A stretch of 40,102 bases of DNA from a virus: positions 1-40,102 of IMG/VR virus record IMGVR_UViG_3300044726_000141. One strand, 5' to 3'. Below, in pieces: positions 4,348 through 40,102 of this stretch. The notes beneath the pieces are model-generated. The model saw only the letters and a program-made list of their open reading frames with translations. It did not search any database and was not told the DNA's origin. Each line of letters begins with the position of its first letter. Within the stretch, counting starts at the first letter, position 1. The translations under genes were made by a program, and so were the position numbers.

Positions 4348-5080
4348 TGAGATTACGCCGGCTTGGTTTAAGGCAATGGTCTTGCAGCTTACGCCGGAAG
4401 ATGGCGACGAAAGCGATGCCGAGCAGAAGGTACGCGAGCAGTTAGAAAAGAAGTTTACGCGTGAACTGGACAAGGCCTTTGGGGAGCAGCTAGACACGCT
4501 CATCCCGTCTGGCGCTTCCGACGACGCCATTCGCAATGCGCCTTACCAGGTCAATGCTACCAGTGAGCCGGTGCGTGAGGTGCTACGCCGCAATCTGGAA
4601 AGCGGGTCAGAGTTGGGTGTGAGCGTGGCCTTTGACACCTTAGAGCAGATTGGCATGGCCTTTGACTGGACTTTGGCGCACGAAGAAGCCGCCCGTTTTG
4701 CTAGTACCTATTCTTACGAGTTGATTCGTGGCATTAACAACACGACACAGGCGCGTATGCAAACGGCGGTTAACGATTGGTTCCGAGAAAGAACGACCCT
4801 GCCTGATCTCATCAAGGAATTAGAGCCTACGTTCGGACGCAGGCGCGCGAAAAATATCGCGATCACGGAATCGACACGTAGCGCCACAGAAGGTAGCCGC
4901 ATCGGTTATGAAAAATCTGGGGTTGTATCTGAGGTGATGATCCGCAACGCAAACGATGAAAAAGTTTGTCCAATTTGTGGCCCAAAAGGTGGAACAAGGA
5001 CGCCATTACGCGGCGGCGATCATCCGCCCTACCACGTAAATTGCCGATGCTGGATTTCTCCTATCGTTGAAACGCCTTAG
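4325..5080 (+). CDS. MuF-like head morphogenesis protein
   Basis: About 251 residues from the ATG at 4325, which follows GGCGAGG and overlaps the portal end. The C-terminus carries the MuF signature: a Cys-x-x-Cys (CPICGPKGG), PPYHVNCRCW, and the preceding ITESTRSATEGSR segment. MuF proteins are minor head components encoded next to the portal and can be injected with DNA. The region upstream to 4286 is also open, but that start lacks a ribosome-binding site. Confidence 0.85.
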   Translation: MPPFPIPDEITPAWFKAMVLQLTPEDGDESDAEQKVREQLEKKFTRELDKAFGEQLDTLIPSGASDDAIRNAPYQVNATSEPVREVLRRNLESGSELGVSVAFDTLEQIGMAFDWTLAHEEAARFASTYSYELIRGINNTTQARMQTAVNDWFRERTTLPDLIKELEPTFGRRRAKNIAITESTRSATEGSRIGYEKSGVVSEVMIRNANDEKVCPICGPKGGTRTPLRGGDHPPYHVNCRCWISPIVETP

Positions 5081-5877
5081 CCGATTAGGGGCAATTGCAC
5101 GTGAGTACCAGGCATCTTAACAAACTCAAGTATCTGATTCTCGGCAGATAGTGGCAATCGATTTCTGTCGTCACCCTGCAAGCGTAAAACCTTGTAGCCG
5201 CGTGTTAACAAGTAGGCGTTTTTTCGTGCGTCACTCACTTTTACCTTTGGTAGCTTGTGGTGATAAAAGCCATCGGCCTCAATTACCGCAAGGTGTTTTG
5301 GCAAGTAAAAGTCGCAAGCGTATCGACCGATAGGATGCTGCTCAATGTATTCAATCTGGAGTGTATCGAGGATATGAGCAAGGGATTTTTCGAGCGTGGT
5401 TCGCTCTTTGCCTTTGATTTTGCAACCCCAAGAGCAATAGGTATCGCCGCCGCGCTTTATGGTAGACGGTCTCGCCACAAATGTCTTGTGACAGACCGGA
5501 CACTCTTTCTCGAATCGGATGTCAATAGCTCGGCTGTGGCACTTGTGAGAGCAGAATTTATGCGGCTGATTTTCTCTCGGCTCGCTTCGTCTCTCAAACG
5601 TTATTCCGCAATATTCGCACTGGTATTGGATGCGTATGTTGTGCGATTGCCGATAAAGAGTTTGGCACTCCGCAGAGCAAAAGTTTTTGAGGTACGCCTT
5701 CACTCTGCTGGAGCGTCTTACAAAGCTACGCCGGCATTGTGGACAAGTGGCCTGCGTGCGGCCAAATCCATTAAAGCACGCACGGCAACAGAAGTGGCGG
5801 TCATTGCGTTGCGCCTTGTATTTGGTGGTCTCAAAATCGCGTCCGCATGTGGCGCAATTGACCATAACGTGTGCCAT
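5077..5877 (-). CDS. free-standing endonuclease: zinc-finger array plus Vsr-like nuclease
   Basis: A 266-residue protein on the strand opposite to all head genes. Residues 1-150 hold four consecutive CxxC...C-x(3)-C type zinc modules (CATCG...FCCRAC, CPQCR...FCSAEC, CEYCG...FCSHKC, CPVCH...YCSWGC). Residues 165-260 form a Vsr/DUF559-type PD-(D/E)xK nuclease with LEKSLAHIL, YACDFYLP and IEADG plus a histidine. Such proteins act as homing endonucleases in phages. The ATG at 5877 is preferred because GCAGGAGAC lies 8 bases upstream; a longer frame to 5931 lacks one. The stop overlaps the MuF stop on the other strand, marking it as an insertion between MuF and the gp10-like gene. Confidence 0.82.
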   Translation of the reverse strand: MAHVMVNCATCGRDFETTKYKAQRNDRHFCCRACFNGFGRTQATCPQCRRSFVRRSSRVKAYLKNFCSAECQTLYRQSHNIRIQYQCEYCGITFERRSEPRENQPHKFCSHKCHSRAIDIRFEKECPVCHKTFVARPSTIKRGGDTYCSWGCKIKGKERTTLEKSLAHILDTLQIEYIEQHPIGRYACDFYLPKHLAVIEADGFYHHKLPKVKVSDARKNAYLLTRGYKVLRLQGDDRNRLPLSAENQILEFVKMPGTHVQLPLIG

Positions 5878-5883
5878 AAAAAA

Positions 5884-6000
5884 AGTCTCCTGCTTTGAAA
5901 CGGTTGGCTGTTCTTGTCTAGGGAACGCCACGCCAAAGCAGGAGACTAAGCAACTATATCAGTAGCCAGTTCCAACCGTCAATGTGACATTCCCTAGACA
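5884..6000 (-). promoter_or_regulatory. structured leader of the zinc-finger endonuclease (three crossing inverted repeats)
   Basis: Three perfect inverted repeats interleave here. A: 5884-5897 with 5934-5947 (14 bp, AGTCTCCTGCTTTG). B: 5900-5907 with 5972-5979 (8 bp, ACGGTTGG). C: 5915-5925 with 5990-6000 (11 bp, TGTCTAGGGAA). The order is A B C A' B' C', so every pair crosses the others. On the minus strand, repeat A contains the endonuclease Shine-Dalgarno and is followed by TTTTTT and then the ATG, so it can act as a terminator or as a stem hiding the ribosome-binding site. An AT-rich -10-like stretch (minus-strand GATAAAAT) lies just upstream near 6006-6015. Confidence 0.75.
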
Positions 6001-6034
6001 CCTATATTTTATCACACTTGAACGAGTAAATCTA

Positions 6035-6481: not shown

Positions 6482-8212
6482 ATGGACGAAAACGAGCTTG
6501 TTTATGTCGGAGATGAAGTCAAGGCGCTTGACGACAATGGCCGCGTGGGTGGCTATCTGGTGCGCTATGGGTCGCCGGACGATGTAGACCTGACCGGCGA
6601 TTACTTTGACGCCGCTACCGACTTTGACGTGGACGAATGGCCGCACAAATCACGTGTCTATTACCAGCACGGCATGGATGAGCGGCTTAGAAACCGCAAG
6701 CTAGGCAAGGCCGAAATGCGCCAGGATGAGATCGGCGTGTGGGTCGAAGCGCAGCTTGGACTACGCGACGAATACGAAAAGGCCATCTTTGAACTGGTCA
6801 AACAGGGCAAGATGGGCTGGTCAAGCGGCACGGCGGGCCATCTGGTTGAGCGTGAGCAAAAGGGCGCCGCCCACCAGATTAAGCATTGGCCGCTCGGTCT
6901 TGACGCCTCGATTACACCCACACCCGCCGAATATCGCAATTCGGCTATGTCACTCAAATCCCTAGCACTCGTTGACGCCAGTTATGAGGCGCTTTTGCCG
7001 GAGGACGCAAGGCCTGCGTCGGTGCAGAGCGTAAAAACTGAACCAGCGGGGGCGACCACCATTTCCATACTAGAAAATTCACAGGAGACAAGCACCATGC
7101 CTGAAGCAATTAGCGAGGTCAAGGCCTCCGCTATTGACCAACTTGACCCCAAGCTGTTAGAGACCATCACGCATCACACCATTGAGGCGTGGAAGAAGGC
7201 ACAAAAGGACGAGCAAGAGGCGAAGGCGGTCAACCACGCCTTTATCCAGACGCCTGAGACCGATTCTATCAAAGCCATCGAACTGCGCCAACGGCGTGAC
7301 GAGTTGGCCGCCCTCAAGCAATATATTCGTGACGCCGACAGCCGCGCCTATCAATCTTGGTTTGCCGACCAGCTCAAGGCCAGCAACGCCACCGACATGA
7401 ACATCACCACAGCGGCAGACGGCGGCAATCTCGTGCCCGTTGGTCACTACCAACGCATCATCGCCAAGCGTGACGAAACGGCGCTCGATACGAAGGTGGG
7501 CGTCCTCAACATCCCCGGCAAGGGAACAACGGTCAACGTGCCTTACGAATCGGGTACGGCCAATGTCTTTATCTCTACGGCAGAGGCGGTCGCCTTTGAC
7601 CTCGATGCACCGGCGGTGGGCCAACGCGTGATGACGCTGGTCAAGTACACCAAGAAGATCCAGCTCTCGGTGGAACTGATCGAGGATGAGGATAGCCAGC
7701 TCATGCCCTTCCTGGAGGAATATGTAGGGCGAGCGTTGGCGCTAACGCAAAATACGGCGCTGATGACCGAGGTCTTAGCCAACGGTACCACCGTCGCCCT
7801 GACCGGTTCGGCGGCGGCAGCGGGGCATATCCCGGCAATGGTCTATGCCTTGCCCGACGAGTACGCCGATGGCGCTCAATGGGTGATGCGCCGCGCCACC
7901 GAAGGCCAGTACCGCGCTTTGAGTGGCAACAACTGGCAATTTGCGCCAACGCCTCCCGGTGGCACCACTGACAGCACCCTGTGGGGCTTTCCCGTCAATC
8001 ACTCTCAATTCGTACCCGCCGTCGCTGCCTTAGCTAAAGCGGTTGTGCTGGCCAACTTCAACTATGTCGGCAAGCGTCAGGTTAACCAATTGACCTTCCT
8101 GCGCGACCCCTATTCGAGCGGCGGCACAGGGCAAGTCAACCTGCTCTACTATGCGCGCTTTGTTTACAAGGTCTTGCAGGCCGCACCTGTGCTCTACGGC
8201 ACACTCGCCTAA
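6482..8212 (+). CDS. prohead protease-major capsid protein fusion
   Basis: A 576-residue polyprotein. Residues 1-170 match HK97-type prohead maturation proteases (GYLVRYGSPDDVDLTGDYF, YYQHG with the catalytic-type His, GWSSGTAGH with the Ser, and TPTPAEYRN). Residues from about 206 match an HK97-fold major capsid protein: a charged helical delta/scaffold-like stretch (to about 300), then GGNLVPVGHYQRII, the E-loop/P-domain region and a C-terminal LLYYARFVYK. In most phages these are separate genes. An in-frame ATG at 7097 with a strong upstream AGGAG would make the capsid part alone (371 residues). The fusion would deliver protease into the prohead at low copy number. Confidence 0.88.
   Translation: MDENELVYVGDEVKALDDNGRVGGYLVRYGSPDDVDLTGDYFDAATDFDVDEWPHKSRVYYQHGMDERLRNRKLGKAEMRQDEIGVWVEAQLGLRDEYEKAIFELVKQGKMGWSSGTAGHLVEREQKGAAHQIKHWPLGLDASITPTPAEYRNSAMSLKSLALVDASYEALLPEDARPASVQSVKTEPAGATTISILENSQETSTMPEAISEVKASAIDQLDPKLLETITHHTIEAWKKAQKDEQEAKAVNHAFIQTPETDSIKAIELRQRRDELAALKQYIRDADSRAYQSWFADQLKASNATDMNITTAADGGNLVPVGHYQRIIAKRDETALDTKVGVLNIPGKGTTVNVPYESGTANVFISTAEAVAFDLDAPAVGQRVMTLVKYTKKIQLSVELIEDEDSQLMPFLEEYVGRALALTQNTALMTEVLANGTTVALTGSAAAAGHIPAMVYALPDEYADGAQWVMRRATEGQYRALSGNNWQFAPTPPGGTTDSTLWGFPVNHSQFVPAVAALAKAVVLANFNYVGKRQVNQLTFLRDPYSSGGTGQVNLLYYARFVYKVLQAAPVLYGTLA
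7083..7099 (+). promoter_or_regulatory. internal ribosome-binding site and start of free major capsid protein
   Basis: AGGAG (7083-7087), 9 bases, then ATG (7097-7099), in frame with the long open reading frame. The predicted product starts MPEAISEV, at the boundary between protease and the delta-like region. This would give many copies of capsid per fused protease-capsid copy. Confidence 0.75.
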
Positions 8213-8225
8213 CGATTAGAGATAA

Positions 8226-8247
8226 GGGCGGCGCGCAAGTGCCGCCC
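8226..8247 (+). repeat. leader hairpin before the 8266 gene
   Basis: GGGCGGC and GCCGCCC (7 bp) around a GCGCAAGT loop, just before the GAAGGAG ribosome-binding site of the next gene. It has no T tract, so it is more likely an mRNA leader or processing element than a terminator. Position relative to the ribosome-binding site resembles the hairpins at 6429 and 24474. Confidence 0.5.
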
Positions 8248-8265
8248 TCCAAGAAGGAGATAGCA

Positions 8266-34293: not shown

Positions 34294-34324
34294 GTGGCAG
34301 TGGGCAAGTTTTATCCAGCGGAGA

Positions 34325-35140
34325 TTACTCGACATGCTTCCATGTTTTGCGATGGGCAATATGTTTCACCGTAGAACGGTTCAAGCCAATGTCGCGGGCG
34401 ATAGCGGAGATTGTTTCGCCGGCAGCAAAACGCACTCGAATGATTCTTACCTGACTCTCATTAGCTTTGGCGAGATTAGACCGTTCGCCGCGACGAGTGT
34501 TACGCGGCGCCTCTCTCGTCACGCGGTTTCTGTCTTTAGCTATCATATCCTGTGTATTATCTTTTGGCGTGCCCAGAAACAGATGCGCCGGATTGACACA
34601 CAGCGGAGTATCGCACTTATGAAGTACCCAAAGACCATCGGGAATTTCGCCATAGTGGAGTTGCCAACTCAGGCGATGCGCGCCAAGTCGTTGCTTGCGG
34701 ATTTGTGCTTGCCCATAGCCGGACGGATAGCGGGTTCCTTGCCACAACCAACATTCGTCAACCGCACCTGGCGTGACGTTTTTCCAAAGTGCCGTTTCCG
34801 GCGTGTTTCTTTGGTGGCCGTGAGAACGAATATAGCGCAAAGGTTGACCCCTAACATCGCCCGTTTTACTGTTGGAAGCAGGCGCAAGATTTGTTTTTTG
34901 GCCGCAACCACACATACACAGCCCGCCAGGATTAGGCGCTACCTCAGGAACACCTACCAAGCGATCATGTCCCTTAATGAAGCGCAAAGGCTGCCCTATG
35001 ACATCACCCCTTTTAGTATTGGACTGGGGCGCAAGGTTTGTCTTTTGACCGCAGCCGCACATACACAGACCGCTTGGATTGGGGCCAGTTTGAGGAAAGG
35101 GAAGTTGGGATTGAGTAAACTCTGGGGTATGCTCAGTCAC
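34325..35140 (-). CDS. free-standing HNH homing endonuclease with duplicated N-terminal module
   Basis: A 271-residue protein with GTG start and a perfect AGGAGGT. Residues 24-110 carry two copies of a motif reading GLCMCGCGQKTNLAP..SN..GDV.GQPLRFI.GH, probably DNA-binding. Residues 120-195 are an HNH_3-type nuclease (ECWLWQGTRYPSGYG, AHRLSWQLHYGE, VLHKCDTPLCVNP, AHLFLGTPKDN). The C-terminal 60 residues form a helix-turn-helix (AGETISAIARDIGLNRST). Antisense to all neighbours and set between unrelated small genes, it is a mobile insertion. Its leader is shared with the HNH at 37466. Confidence 0.87.
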   Translation of the reverse strand: MTEHTPEFTQSQLPFPQTGPNPSGLCMCGCGQKTNLAPQSNTKRGDVIGQPLRFIKGHDRLVGVPEVAPNPGGLCMCGCGQKTNLAPASNSKTGDVRGQPLRYIRSHGHQRNTPETALWKNVTPGAVDECWLWQGTRYPSGYGQAQIRKQRLGAHRLSWQLHYGEIPDGLWVLHKCDTPLCVNPAHLFLGTPKDNTQDMIAKDRNRVTREAPRNTRRGERSNLAKANESQVRIIRVRFAAGETISAIARDIGLNRSTVKHIAHRKTWKHVE

Positions 35141-35154
35141 GTCGATTACCTCCT

Positions 35155-35232
35155 AAGGGTATCGGCCAAGCCTGGGACGGTTGACGCCGTTGCCAGGTAC
35201 TTTGTATTGGGCTACTCGACTAAGTATAGCTC
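35155..35232 (-). promoter_or_regulatory. HNH-1 leader: conserved hairpin plus -10-like site
   Basis: Hairpin 35171-35197: CCTGG, one-base bulge, ACGG, 6-base loop, CCGT, two-base bulge TG, CCAGG. Flanks on the plus strand are GCCAAG before and GTAC-TTT-TATTG after. A minus-strand TATACT (about 35224-35229) lies further upstream. Its architecture is the same as the HNH-2 leader at 38151-38215, with compensatory changes in both stems. Confidence 0.7.
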
Positions 35233-35249
35233 AAAACCGCTCGTTTGTC

Positions 35250-35480
35250 ATGTCCACCCTTGACCTTTTTGGCCTTTTCGCCGGCTACGTGACCATCGGC
35301 TCCGTTGCGCTCTATCTCCAGTTTCGATCCAATGTCGCCGCCCTGGACAAGTTAGCCGCGGCGCATGAGCGGCACACGGCAGATTTACGCATGATGATCG
35401 AGGTGTTGCAGCTCATGATTATGCAGGGACAGGAAACGGCCAGACCCAACCGGGCGACCCATGCGGAGATGGAGCTATGA
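35250..35480 (+). CDS. 76-residue membrane-anchored helical protein
   Basis: ATG 35250 (no strong ribosome-binding site; the upstream DNA is the HNH leader, so the native 5' region may have been changed). N-terminal membrane segment (LFGLFAGYVTIGSVALYL) and a coiled helix (LDKLAAAHERHTADLRMMIEVLQLM). Probably a lysis-region or accessory membrane protein. Confidence 0.55.
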   Translation: MSTLDLFGLFAGYVTIGSVALYLQFRSNVAALDKLAAAHERHTADLRMMIEVLQLMIMQGQETARPNRATHAEMEL

Positions 35481-35668
35481 ACGAATACCTGTACGAATAC
35501 CGCCTTGATCATCGCGATCCCAGAACTGTGCAAGTGAGGCGCATCTATGGCACGGATGAGAACCCGCTCAACTGGCGGCTCTATCTTGTCTGTGACTCCG
35601 AGGAGCACGCTGAGTATGTCTTGCGTCTGTTGCAACTGACCGAACAGATTGAGACGGTGAGGGAATGA
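35477..35668 (+). CDS. hypothetical protein, 63 residues
   Basis: ATGA overlap with the previous gene. Acidic, rich in Tyr and Arg (YLYEYRLDHRDPRTVQVRR). No family recognised. Part of a run of four overlapping genes ending in the endolysin. Confidence 0.5.
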   Translation: MNEYLYEYRLDHRDPRTVQVRRIYGTDENPLNWRLYLVCDSEEHAEYVLRLLQLTEQIETVRE

Positions 35669-35901
35669 CGATCGACCCGAAAACGCAGGAGCGCCTCGAT
35701 TGGCTGGCAATCAACGGGATTTGCACGTCCATCACCTTTGGCCCATCGGCAGGGCACGGCATTATCTGGACGGTTAACTGTCTGTCGCCCATTTATCTGG
35801 ACTTCGAGCGGCCATTGCAAGCTCATTCATTTGACCATGCCGTAGAAATTGCCGTCAAACATTCGATTAAGCTCAAGTTTGTTGAAGGGCCACCGCCATG
35901 A
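35665..35901 (+). CDS. hypothetical protein, 78 residues
   Basis: ATGA overlap. Beta-rich middle (GHGIIWTVNCLSPIYLDFE) with a following helix. No family recognised. Confidence 0.5.
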   Translation: MTIDPKTQERLDWLAINGICTSITFGPSAGHGIIWTVNCLSPIYLDFERPLQAHSFDHAVEIAVKHSIKLKFVEGPPP

Positions 35902-36098
35902 CCATCACCTCAATAGCAGGGCGCCGCAAATTCCGGGTGAATCCTGATGACCATTGCCAAGTAGAAATGCAGCCCAAACACGGCGCGCAATGGGTCGAGT
36001 ACGCCAAAGTGGGTAGTTGGCTGGAGGCGAGCAAGCTGGTCTTTGCGCTGGCGTCAAAGCGGGAAGAAGAGACGCAGGAATTGCCGGTGAGCGAGTGA
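35898..36098 (+). CDS. hypothetical protein, 66 residues, before the endolysin
   Basis: ATGA overlap with the previous gene, and its stop overlaps the endolysin GTG. N-terminal beta part and a C-terminal helix (EASKLVFALASKREEETQ). No family recognised. Confidence 0.5.
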   Translation: MTITSIAGRRKFRVNPDDHCQVEMQPKHGAQWVEYAKVGSWLEASKLVFALASKREEETQELPVSE

Positions 36099-37447
36099 CT
36101 AATCCCATTGGCGTCTACTGGTCGGTCATGCACCGCAGGCCGCAGGATTACACCTACTTCCGGCGGCTGCAACCGTCCATCTTCAAGATCATGGATGGTG
36201 GCGTCCCTGACTATCAATGGGCCAAAGACAATCTACACGATAGCCTGGTCGTTGCGCGGGACTGGGCGCTTTCGGAGCAGCATAGCGACATGCTCAAAGA
36301 CCCTGTTGCCACCGGCAAGCGTCACGCGCAGGAGTGGAACCAGCATCAGCAGCGCCTAGGCTTTAACAAGGCCAAGACGCTTATCTGTGGTATCAACGAA
36401 CCCCAAATCTGGAATCCTGGCGTAGCGGAGGCCTTGCGCTCCTATACGATTGCGCTCTGCAATGAGGCGACCGTTTACGGCTTATGTGTCGGTGCTATGC
36501 AACTGTCCGTTGGCTGGCCTGCCAACACCGGCCCGGATACGCCGCCCGACTGGTCGCCCTTTCACGGGGTAGATAATGCCATCCGCCACAACAACGGCGC
36601 GCTGATTGTCCATGAATATTGGGCCGACCGCGGGCCAAAGGAAAACTGGGGATGGTGGGGTGGACGTGCGCTTAAATGTCCCTGGCAAGTGCCGATTGTG
36701 ATTGGCGAGTGCGGCGTGGATATGTTCGTCAGAGATGCCAGCGTGCTGCACCAGGCACGGGGCTGGCGTGGACGCATGGAACCGCAGCGTTACGCCGCCG
36801 AGTTGGCCGAGTATTGTAGCCTGATGAGCGTGGACAGCCGCTTTAAGGGCTGTGCCGTCTTTGCCTCTGACTATGCTAATCGCGAATGGTTTTCGTTTGA
36901 CGTAGAGCCTGCCTACGATGCGATTCTGGCCACGCCGATACCACAGCCGCCCAAGCCGCAACCGCCCAACCCTGGCCCCACGCCGCCACCCACGACCGAG
37001 CTGGTGCACCCACTACCCGGCAGCAGCATCACGCAAAATTTCTATGAGGAAAGCGACGCCTACTTGCAATACGGTTTCCGCGCTCACAATGGCACAGACC
37101 TCGGCGGGCAGCCCTTACGCACCCCTGTGCGCAGTATAGCGGCGGGGATTGTTGTCTGGTCAGACTTCGATCCTGGCTACGGCCACTATGTGCGCGTTGC
37201 CCATGATTATCTTGATTGCTACGTCATGTACTGTCATTTGGATGAGGCTGGTGCGACGGTAGGCGCGCCGCTAGGGGCGGGCGACACGGTTGGACTCTTA
37301 GGCTCCAGTGGCAACAGCACGGGCGCGCATCTGCACATCGAGGTTCGTTTGCAGAACAAGGACGGCACGTACCGCGAAGATTGCCCGATGTCGAAGGGTA
37401 GAGTTGATCCAAGAACCTGGGCAGCAATGTACGGGCTGAAATTATAG
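36095..37447 (+). CDS. endolysin: TIM-barrel glycosidase plus M23 peptidase
   Basis: About 450 residues with a GTG start overlapping the previous stop (a longer frame from 36017 lacks support). Residues 1-275 form a glycoside-hydrolase barrel (ICGINEPQIW with the acid Glu, and VIGECGVDMF with a second Glu). Residues 281-302 are a Pro-rich linker. Residues 310-440 are an M23/LytM metallopeptidase, with HNGTDLG near 330 and HLHIE near 411 as the metal ligands. The two catalytic domains attack glycan and peptide bonds of the cell wall. No signal peptide visible, so a holin would be needed; candidates lie at 38250. Confidence 0.87.
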   Translation: MTNPIGVYWSVMHRRPQDYTYFRRLQPSIFKIMDGGVPDYQWAKDNLHDSLVVARDWALSEQHSDMLKDPVATGKRHAQEWNQHQQRLGFNKAKTLICGINEPQIWNPGVAEALRSYTIALCNEATVYGLCVGAMQLSVGWPANTGPDTPPDWSPFHGVDNAIRHNNGALIVHEYWADRGPKENWGWWGGRALKCPWQVPIVIGECGVDMFVRDASVLHQARGWRGRMEPQRYAAELAEYCSLMSVDSRFKGCAVFASDYANREWFSFDVEPAYDAILATPIPQPPKPQPPNPGPTPPPTTELVHPLPGSSITQNFYEESDAYLQYGFRAHNGTDLGGQPLRTPVRSIAAGIVVWSDFDPGYGHYVRVAHDYLDCYVMYCHLDEAGATVGAPLGAGDTVGLLGSSGNSTGAHLHIEVRLQNKDGTYREDCPMSKGRVDPRTWAAMYGLKL

Positions 37448-37459
37448 GAGATTGCTATG
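37445..37459 (+). promoter_or_regulatory. orphan ribosome-binding site and ATG at the endonuclease junction
   Basis: TAGGAG (37445-37450), six bases, ATG (37457-37459), directly after the endolysin stop. The open frame that follows runs antisense to the HNH gene and is not a credible product. The site may be the 5' end of a gene (possibly the 38250 membrane gene) that was split when the HNH gene inserted. Confidence 0.45.
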
Positions 37460-37465
37460 GAAGGT

Positions 37466-38134
37466 TTAGCGTATTCGCCTGGGTCTGACCTTCGTGGTGA
37501 ATACTCGTTCCATTGTCCACCCTTTTTTCATTCTGCGGAGAACCGTCTGCGGACTCATTCCAACAATTTTCGCCCATTCAGCCAGGCATTTGGTTTCTCC
37601 ATTATAGGTAATCATGTGGTTATTGCGCTTATTGCGGCCTTGCTCAGTCTTAGTTGCAAAGCGAACGTTGCCAGGGAAATAGCCGAGGTCATTGTCGATG
37701 CGGTCGAGGGAATAGCCTTTGTCGTCAAAATGGGGAAGTTGGGTAACGTAATCATAGAACGATTGAAAATCATGTTGCCAGTCATCGCAGACGGTTATGC
37801 CTCGCCCACCGTAGCTCTCGTATACATTGCGCGCTGGGTTAATGCAGCGGCTAATCATTTCGTGCCAGACGTCGTATAGGCGAGTGTCGGAAAGACCATG
37901 CGTCCTGATTCTTGCTCTATTGATATCGGCCAATAAGCATCCGCAGGAGGTCGTGTTATGGGATCGCAAAGACGATGTAGCGACAATTCTTTCTGTGCCG
38001 CAATCGCAGCGGCAATGCCAAAGAATTTTGCCATTTTTGGAACGTCCAGCGATACCAAGAGTGATCAGGCGACCAAACCTTTGGCCTGTAATATCTTTGA
38101 ATCTGTGACCGGTGGGAATATACTGGGGCTGCAT
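37466..38134 (-). CDS. free-standing HNH-like homing endonuclease of the GRGI type
   Basis: A 222-residue protein from ATG 38134 (AAAGGA 8 bases upstream; an extension to 38191 would start inside the leader hairpin). Motifs: WHCRCDCGTERIV with CGCLL (zinc-like), MISRCINPARN, YGGRGITVCDDW, SLDRIDNDLGYFPGNVRFAT, NKRNN, and a C-terminal repeat region (LAEWAKIVGMSPQTVLRRM, GWTMERV). It belongs to a different family from HNH-1. It runs antisense, between the endolysin and a membrane gene. Confidence 0.85.
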   Translation of the reverse strand: MQPQYIPTGHRFKDITGQRFGRLITLGIAGRSKNGKILWHCRCDCGTERIVATSSLRSHNTTSCGCLLADINRARIRTHGLSDTRLYDVWHEMISRCINPARNVYESYGGRGITVCDDWQHDFQSFYDYVTQLPHFDDKGYSLDRIDNDLGYFPGNVRFATKTEQGRNKRNNHMITYNGETKCLAEWAKIVGMSPQTVLRRMKKGWTMERVFTTKVRPRRIR

Positions 38135-38150
38135 GGAAATTATCCTTTCA

Positions 38151-38215
38151 TGCCAAGCCCAGGGGCGTCTCCAAACGCTGCCTGGGTACATTTATTGTAG
38201 GACTTCATTATAGCA
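38151..38215 (-). promoter_or_regulatory. HNH-2 leader: conserved hairpin plus extended -10 promoter
   Basis: Hairpin 38158-38186: CCCAGG, one-base bulge G, GCGT, 6-base loop, ACGC, two-base bulge TG, CCTGGG. Plus-strand flanks are GCCAAG before and GTACATTTATTG after. On the minus strand TATAAT (38212-38207) with TGC before it is an extended -10. Same design as the HNH-1 leader. Confidence 0.7.
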
Positions 38216-38249
38216 CAATTGAGCTATAAGGGCTAAGAAGGAGCAGCAA

Positions 38250-39757: not shown

Positions 39758-40102
39758 AATGCGACTGCGGCCATAGCTTTGAGCCGGTCATCCAGTACCA
39801 GCACCGCCTCATCTGCGGCGACTGTACCGATGCGGCGGTGGTGGCGAGGGTGATGGGGGATGACACCCCAAATCTAATTTTGGCCGATCCTCCCTATGGT
39901 GTAAATATCGTCGCCGCCAACGGTTACGTTGGCGGCGGTGAAGGGCCTAACGGCATGATTCCCTTTGGCGGTAAGAAGCGCGGCTATGTGGGTGGCGGTG
40001 ATCGGATAAAGGCCAGTCCTGGCCTTTATCCGATTGAAACCTTCTGGCTTCCAAACGGCTTGGCTCCTCCAATGGAGCCAAGCCGTTTGGAAGCCAGAAG
40101 GT
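39754..40102 (+). CDS. DNA methyltransferase 2, N-terminal part (3' end outside window)
   Basis: Starts ATGA over methyltransferase 1 and is open to the window end (116 complete codons). MKCDCGHSFEP...CGDCTD, then LILADPPYGVNIVA (motif IV). The C-terminal half, including motif I, is most likely the partial gene at 1-555 (GSIGAANLVDVGKYAPVIGD continues such proteins after the YVGG segment). A direct join of 40102 to 1 is one base out of frame. The last 100 bases hold two large hairpins and give an unusual peptide (DRIKASPGLYPIETFWL), so this end could be atypical or an assembly effect. Confidence 0.75.
   Translation, partial: MKCDCGHSFEPVIQYQHRLICGDCTDAAVVARVMGDDTPNLILADPPYGVNIVAANGYVGGGEGPNGMIPFGGKKRGYVGGGDRIKASPGLYPIETFWLPNGLAPPMEPSRLEARR
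39912..39937. repeat. perfect 11-bp hairpin in methyltransferase 2
   Basis: CGCCGCCAACG (39912-39922), loop GTTA, CGTTGGCGGCG (39927-39937), just after the DPPY codons. Confidence 0.85.
40001..40034. repeat. perfect 15-bp hairpin near the window end
   Basis: ATCGGATAAAGGCCA (40001-40015), loop GTCC, TGGCCTTTATCCGAT (40020-40034). Confidence 0.87.
40039..40102. repeat. 29-bp perfect inverted repeat ending at the window edge
   Basis: Arm 40039-40067 (starts ACCTTCTGGC) is the exact reverse complement of 40074-40102, with a six-base loop TCCAAT. The second arm ends at the last base. Either a long natural hairpin, or a fold-back effect at the sequence end. Confidence 0.85.

Follow-up and report, generated by a model that had tools for sequence, protein, structure and literature searches.

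Restraint of nuclease and replication genes in known systems

Restraint of free-standing phage homing endonucleases is mainly known from T4-like phages and involves promoters, autorepression and hairpins that sequester the ribosome binding site (RBS). Such RBS-sequestering hairpins have been described for the T4-type homing endonucleases I-TevI, segB and mobE (PMC2988022). In E. coli the promoter of SymR is located inside symE, and SymR represses symE translation (PMC1891008; PMC3874152 (review)). Reverse promoters in the endonuclease genes of the EcoRI and Eco29kI restriction-modification systems give rise to antisense RNAs restraining expression (PMC3874152). Antisense control of Rep leaders is well established, an example being RNAII of pMV158, a short RNA that inhibits rep translation (PMC4485353). 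In the literature searched, which took in few of the subscription journals, no antisense RNA was found in such an arrangement with homing or HNH endonucleases. Here we describe a portable module at phage HNH endonuclease genes, which probably encodes in cis a terminator-ended antisense RNA predicted to repress HNH translation.

The two HNH genes and their leaders

The window, i.e. the whole stretch of 40,102 nt that was analyzed, comprises positions 1-40,102 of IMG/VR virus record IMGVR_UViG_3300044726_000141. It harbours genes for a terminase, a portal protein, an M23 endolysin, an ERF recombinase and an integrase. The portal profile had matches in 3 of 400 Chloroflexota genomes and, because copies of the module fall in Chloroflexota genomes as well, Chloroflexota are the likely hosts of this phage group. 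The record closes with two successive near-perfect inverted repeats (40000-40102), which have the look of an assembly fold-back.

Two HNH genes are located on the minus strand (Table 1). A preliminary description had assigned their proteins to different HNH families and had reported a shared leader hairpin with compensatory base changes and a -10-like site at similar distance from both genes. These observations hold. The first protein belongs to HNH_3 and the second, which has no Pfam match, to phrog_374. On the plus strand copy 1 of the hairpin (35165-35209) reads GCCAAG CCTGG G ACGG TTGACG CCGT TG CCAGG TAC TTTGTATTG and copy 2 (38152-38197) reads GCCAAG CCCAGG G GCGT CTCCAA ACGC TG CCTGGG TAC ATTTATTG, with one additional G in the first bulge region of copy 2. 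The preliminary description is accurate for the stems, bulges, loop lengths and flanks, and pairing is kept in both leaders. A motif pattern spanning both copies had exactly 2 matches in the window and 0 in 100 dinucleotide shuffles, a result that measures rarity and not discovery, since the pattern was written from these two copies. An Rfam scan of the element gave no family at gathering score, neither HEARO nor another known family, and two focused low-threshold Rfam scans yielded 1 sub-threshold chance match and nothing else.

Table 1 Features of the two HNH units and of an empty junction in the window; RNA ends are predicted
Feature	Position	Strand	Remarks
HNH endonuclease gene 1	34325..35140	-	271 aa; HNH_3 PF13392 (6e-13); GTG start
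HNH-1 mRNA promoter -10	35223..35228	-	TATACT; -35 ATGACA, 17-nt spacer
Antisense -10, unit 1	35128..35133	+	GGGG-TATGCT; inside HNH ORF
Predicted antisense RNA, unit 1	35140..35212	+	~70 nt
Hairpin A, unit 1	35141..35166	+	anti-SD CCTCCT in loop region
Hairpin B, unit 1	35171..35197	+	terminator hairpin, then TACTTTGTATTG
HNH endonuclease gene 2	37466..38134	-	222 aa; phrog_374 family (5e-70)
HNH-2 mRNA promoter -10	38207..38212	-	TATAAT, TGTGCTATAAT; TA...T at same place in 10/10 units
Antisense promoter, unit 2	38097..38124	+	TTGAAT-16-TATACT, -10 at 38119-38124; inside HNH ORF; consensus scan
Predicted antisense RNA, unit 2	38131..38200	+	~70 nt; from fold and coordinates
Hairpin A, unit 2	38131..38153	+	GCATGGAAATTATCCTTTCATGC; anti-SD (TATCC) in or beside loop
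Hairpin B, unit 2	38157..38187	+	intrinsic-terminator hairpin, the hairpin of the preliminary description; then T-rich ACATTTATTG
Empty junction after the 6482-8212 gene	8213..8260	+	L229 has here an HNH gene of a third family together with this module

Some further features were observed near these genes and at another nuclease gene. A palindrome (AGCTCAATTGTGCT, GCACACCTGTGC or similar), possibly a repressor operator, adjoins the HNH -10 at 38207-38230 and at the same place in L178, L406 and L372; in the window a weak divergent -10 (GCTATAAG) for the phage gene that comes next can be read in its right side. The motif GGAGATT(A/G)CT lies at or just past the 3' end of both HNH genes (~34320-34332 and ~37446-37457) and may be an insertion-site trace or a chance occurrence. 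A different, long leader (5875-6025, minus strand) was found upstream of a DUF559/EDxHD gene (5077-5931, minus strand). It contains three mutually crossing helices in the order a-b-c-a'-b'-c' (GTCTAGGGAA/TTCCCTAGAC, ACGGTTGG/CCAACCGT and GTCTCCTGCTTTG/CAAAGCAGGAGAC), the last followed by T7 and ATG. In the L230 homologue (7154-7300, minus strand) all three stems are altered while pairing is kept, and no confident Rfam match was obtained; this leader is a candidate complex attenuator or pseudoknot at another nuclease gene.

Further copies of the module

Relatives of each window protein, L123 and L160 (HNH_3) and L178 and L230 (phrog_374 type), were found to carry the same leader hairpin, and a pattern scan that used no protein detected it in L229, where the gene downstream encodes a third HNH type (PF01844, C-terminal). 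A covariance-model search, as proposed in the preliminary description, gave additional copies upstream of HNH genes of three families. Model R1, built from four copies with window copy 1 left out, detected the omitted copy with a score of 33.6 bits and, with 40.6 bits, also L372, which is in front of an HNH gene. Thirty contigs were chosen by portal similarity alone; among those not searched before, R1 found a single carrier, L434 (55.5 bits), again in front of another HNH gene. The L372 contig also has a divergent copy, L124, in front of its second HNH gene, so that here, as in the window, there are two HNH genes with a module each. Two copies from Chloroflexota genomes, L442 and L443, were detected by models R2 and R3; they are located before HNH_3 genes and show the same anatomy. 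In total, the module was found at no fewer than ten HNH genes from three families, two of them in Chloroflexota genomes; these ten units, of which 4 are of the phrog_374 type and 5 of HNH_3, do not represent ten independent events.

R1 gave 0 matches in 349 Pseudomonadota genomes, in a search run without a positive control. A loose pattern scan of viral contigs returned chance matches only, and a scan of the genome collection for CAATAAATGTRCC...CTTGGC returned no convincing structured match. The idea that the antisense module is general to Chloroflexota HNH_3 genes was rejected, as only L442 and L443 carried it among the 21 examined. The hairpin before seg43(25) of Aeromonas phage 25 was considered as the same element; by eye it has no T-rich antisense tail and therefore appears to be a different thing.

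The functional strand of the hairpin

The preliminary description had placed the hairpin in the leader of the HNH mRNA, and this was also our earlier working view. Indeed, the predicted HNH mRNA has the hairpin at its 5' end, with compensatory changes, and this speaks for a stabiliser, a translational operator or a riboswitch-like element. When the alignment is oriented as the HNH mRNA, 96% of the cells pair and all exceptions are A-C or C-A. On the opposite strand the terminator helix extends to 12 pairs with 132 of 132 cells paired (100%), including 19 G-U wobbles in the same 19 cells that are A-C mismatches on the mRNA strand. Because the antisense strand was used to choose the 12-pair structure, complete pairing there is in part built in, which does not apply to the one-sidedness of the wobbles; a structure fitted on the mRNA strand likewise failed at A-C cells only. 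Compensatory changes were found in 5 of the 12 pairs on the antisense strand, with a covariation score of 0.503 against 0.228 +/- 0.033 for shuffled alignments (0 of 500 shuffles). In all ten units the antisense strand is the more stable one, both for the hairpin, designated hairpin B below, and over the entire leader (mean -5.6 kcal/mol; G-U 28 vs 8). Furthermore, a T-rich tail follows the hairpin on this strand in 9 of the 10 units (5-7 T in 11 nt, compared to 0-4 on the other side). The mRNA-leader placement was dropped on the A-C/G-U asymmetry and the opposite-strand -10; with an mRNA strand that is the less stable one throughout and that has no Rfam match, a sense-strand leader element is very improbable. 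The asymmetry, the T-rich tail and a conserved -10 together argue that the functional strand is likely the one opposite to the HNH mRNA.

The predicted antisense RNA

On the antisense strand a -10-like TAnnnT was found at codons ~3-6 of the HNH ORF in 10/10 units (TATACT in four, TATGAT in two, and TATTCT, TATGCT, TAGGAT and TACGCT). In each unit it occupies one of two in-frame offsets, its last base being 7 or 10 bases short of where the start-codon complement ends, in HNH families unrelated in sequence. The N-terminal likeness of the HNH proteins (QYIPT, KYTPS, DHIP, EHTP) is in part this -10 box. All ten units also have a facing HNH-mRNA -10, the two boxes being 78-94 nt apart; good -35 boxes are present in some units only. 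The RNA predicted from these positions is ~60-75 nt long. Its first hairpin, A, is joined to hairpin B by a linker that reads CCAAG or CCACG in most units, and the T-rich tail follows hairpin B. The RNA start is predicted at the start codon and, because the RNA overlaps the target leader, complementarity to that leader including the Shine-Dalgarno sequence (SD) is full; the RNA of unit 2 is complementary to the start codon, the SD and most of the HNH-2 leader. An anti-SD is located in or beside the hairpin A loop in most units. This anatomy and its conservation can be read directly from the ten units. Among 73 other phage HNH genes, for which up to six possible starts per gene were tried, an antisense -10 was found in 8, an antisense terminator in 3 and both in 0.

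Termination at hairpin B could be partial, since the T-tracts (ATTTATTG) are moderate, and 8 of the 10 units pass a strict terminator test that L442 and L443 fail. L443 has a weak antisense -10 (TACGCT) and a poor hairpin A. It might be argued that hairpin B is a terminator and nothing more, keeping late phage transcripts that traverse the HNH gene in antisense direction off the HNH promoter. The functional strand and the T-tail agree with such a role, and the HNH genes of the window, L229 and L372 are indeed oriented opposite to their neighbours. However, a terminator without a dedicated RNA leaves the -10 in codons 3-6 of 10/10 units and the anti-SD loop of hairpin A unexplained, and it would halt transcription immediately upstream of the following phage gene. 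Moreover, in similar RNA loci elsewhere a -10 places the start 72-85 nt before the end. A role as terminator only is thus considered rather unlikely.

In the preferred reading, that of a cis-encoded antisense RNA, every HNH gene would have its own control module, in which a conserved -10 promoter would give the HNH mRNA. A facing promoter in the first codons would produce a ~60-75 nt antisense RNA running back across the start codon, the SD and the leader, with the conserved hairpin as its intrinsic terminator. In this two-hairpin RNA the anti-SD in the first loop would face the SD of the mRNA in most units, and pairing of mRNA and antisense RNA may block ribosome loading, with convergent transcription as a possible added repression. 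The DNA-cutting enzyme would then stay low until the mRNA outruns the antisense RNA. Firing of both promoters, an RNA end at the hairpin and repression are predicted in this mechanism from sequence features.

Mobility of the HNH units

At an endolysin/holin-like junction the HNH unit is present in the window, L230 and L406, and the junction is empty in L374. Conversely, the junction after a capsid-region gene holds an HNH unit in L229 but none in the window (Table 1). The HNH units thus show the presence/absence polymorphism at one site in related phages by which free-standing homing endonucleases are recognized. The empty sites are without the hairpin, which indicates that the hairpin arrives with the gene. 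It had been suggested as an alternative that the hairpin is a DNA-level insertion or recognition motif travelling with the endonucleases. One site being occupied or empty among related phages, and the same motif occurring at differing sites, are in keeping with this. However, the motif is absent from the compared empty sites, and neither the G-U-biased covariation nor the promoters are predicted by a DNA motif, which makes this suggestion barely credible.

Related RNAs outside endonuclease genes

R1 matches were found in 3 of 400 Chloroflexota genomes. Most genome matches, when read on the antisense strand, are RNA loci of ~72-85 nt with a TGTGC-type -10, a hairpin, a GCCACG-like linker and a terminator. 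Such sRNA-like loci are present in Chloroflexota plasmids and integrative elements: the elements of L438 and L439 are flanked by duplicated tRNAs, L447, L451 and L452 adjoin integrase- or primase-like genes (named by eye), and L440 maps to the leader of a plasmid gene for RepA (RepA_C 7e-26). Homology of these RNAs to the HNH modules is plausible. R2 and R3 were trained partly on R1 genome matches, by which their scores are inflated, and the link to the stand-alone RNAs is therefore weaker than the link among the HNH units. Three R3 matches (L444, L445 and L450) were set aside as chance-like; two overlap ORFs and none has a clear target.

As separate observations, L438, L439, L441, L446 and L448 (loci L464, L467-L469 and L456) are stand-alone Chloroflexota RNA loci of ~75 nt, with hairpin, GCCACG-like linker and terminator, that adjoin tRNA or att-like sites of small integrative elements; duplicated tRNA-Arg genes flank two of the elements. 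Two related RNA loci, L462 and L463, directly follow an XRE-type repressor gene near TnpB-like genes (by eye).

The preliminary description had spoken of a portable regulatory RNA element that travels with endonucleases. A structured and portable element with real covariation, associated with unrelated HNH genes, was indeed found; it is not exclusive to endonucleases, because Chloroflexota plasmids and integrative elements contain RNAs of a similar kind, including one at a RepA leader. As a tentative idea, which we hold to be possible but not probable, a single two-hairpin antisense RNA lineage may serve as an exchangeable cassette of Chloroflexota plasmid rep genes, integrative elements and several phage HNH families that acquired it independently.

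Comparison with known systems

If the antisense reading is correct, a portable antisense RNA would be an additional mechanism to restrain free-standing phage homing endonucleases, akin to SymR and to plasmid copy-number control. It could also allow unrelated HNH genes to become established, as any nuclease joined to the cassette would begin repressed. The analysis supplies a testable RNA and a covariance model for searches in a poorly studied phylum.

With the T4-type endonucleases the module would share a restraint of phage endonuclease translation via RNA structure at the RBS. There, the SD is held in a stem of the mRNA itself and freed by a late promoter. Here, in contrast, the SD is not sequestered in this way; it is mostly located in the loop of the second hairpin of the leader (partly paired in unit 1 and L372), and an RNA from the opposite strand is predicted. 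The short antisense RNAs of plasmids target rep, whereas the target here is a phage endonuclease; nevertheless, the related match L440 is at a plasmid RepA leader. EcoRI and Eco29kI likewise have a reverse promoter within the endonuclease gene and an antisense RNA, but no such two-hairpin RNA, and their nucleases have a partner methyltransferase and are not of the homing type. Another close counterpart is SymE-SymR. Like other cis-antisense regulators, the module has an opposite-strand promoter, here predicted from the DNA, in the 5' part of its target. As in E. coli, the predicted cis-encoded antisense RNA would have its promoter in the target ORF and overlap the 5' region with the SD, and translation of a nuclease-like protein is repressed there and predicted to be repressed here. 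SymE, however, is an AbrB-fold RNA-endonuclease-like toxin, in another host and with another RNA, whereas the targets here are phage HNH endonucleases, and one type of predicted RNA is found on three HNH families.
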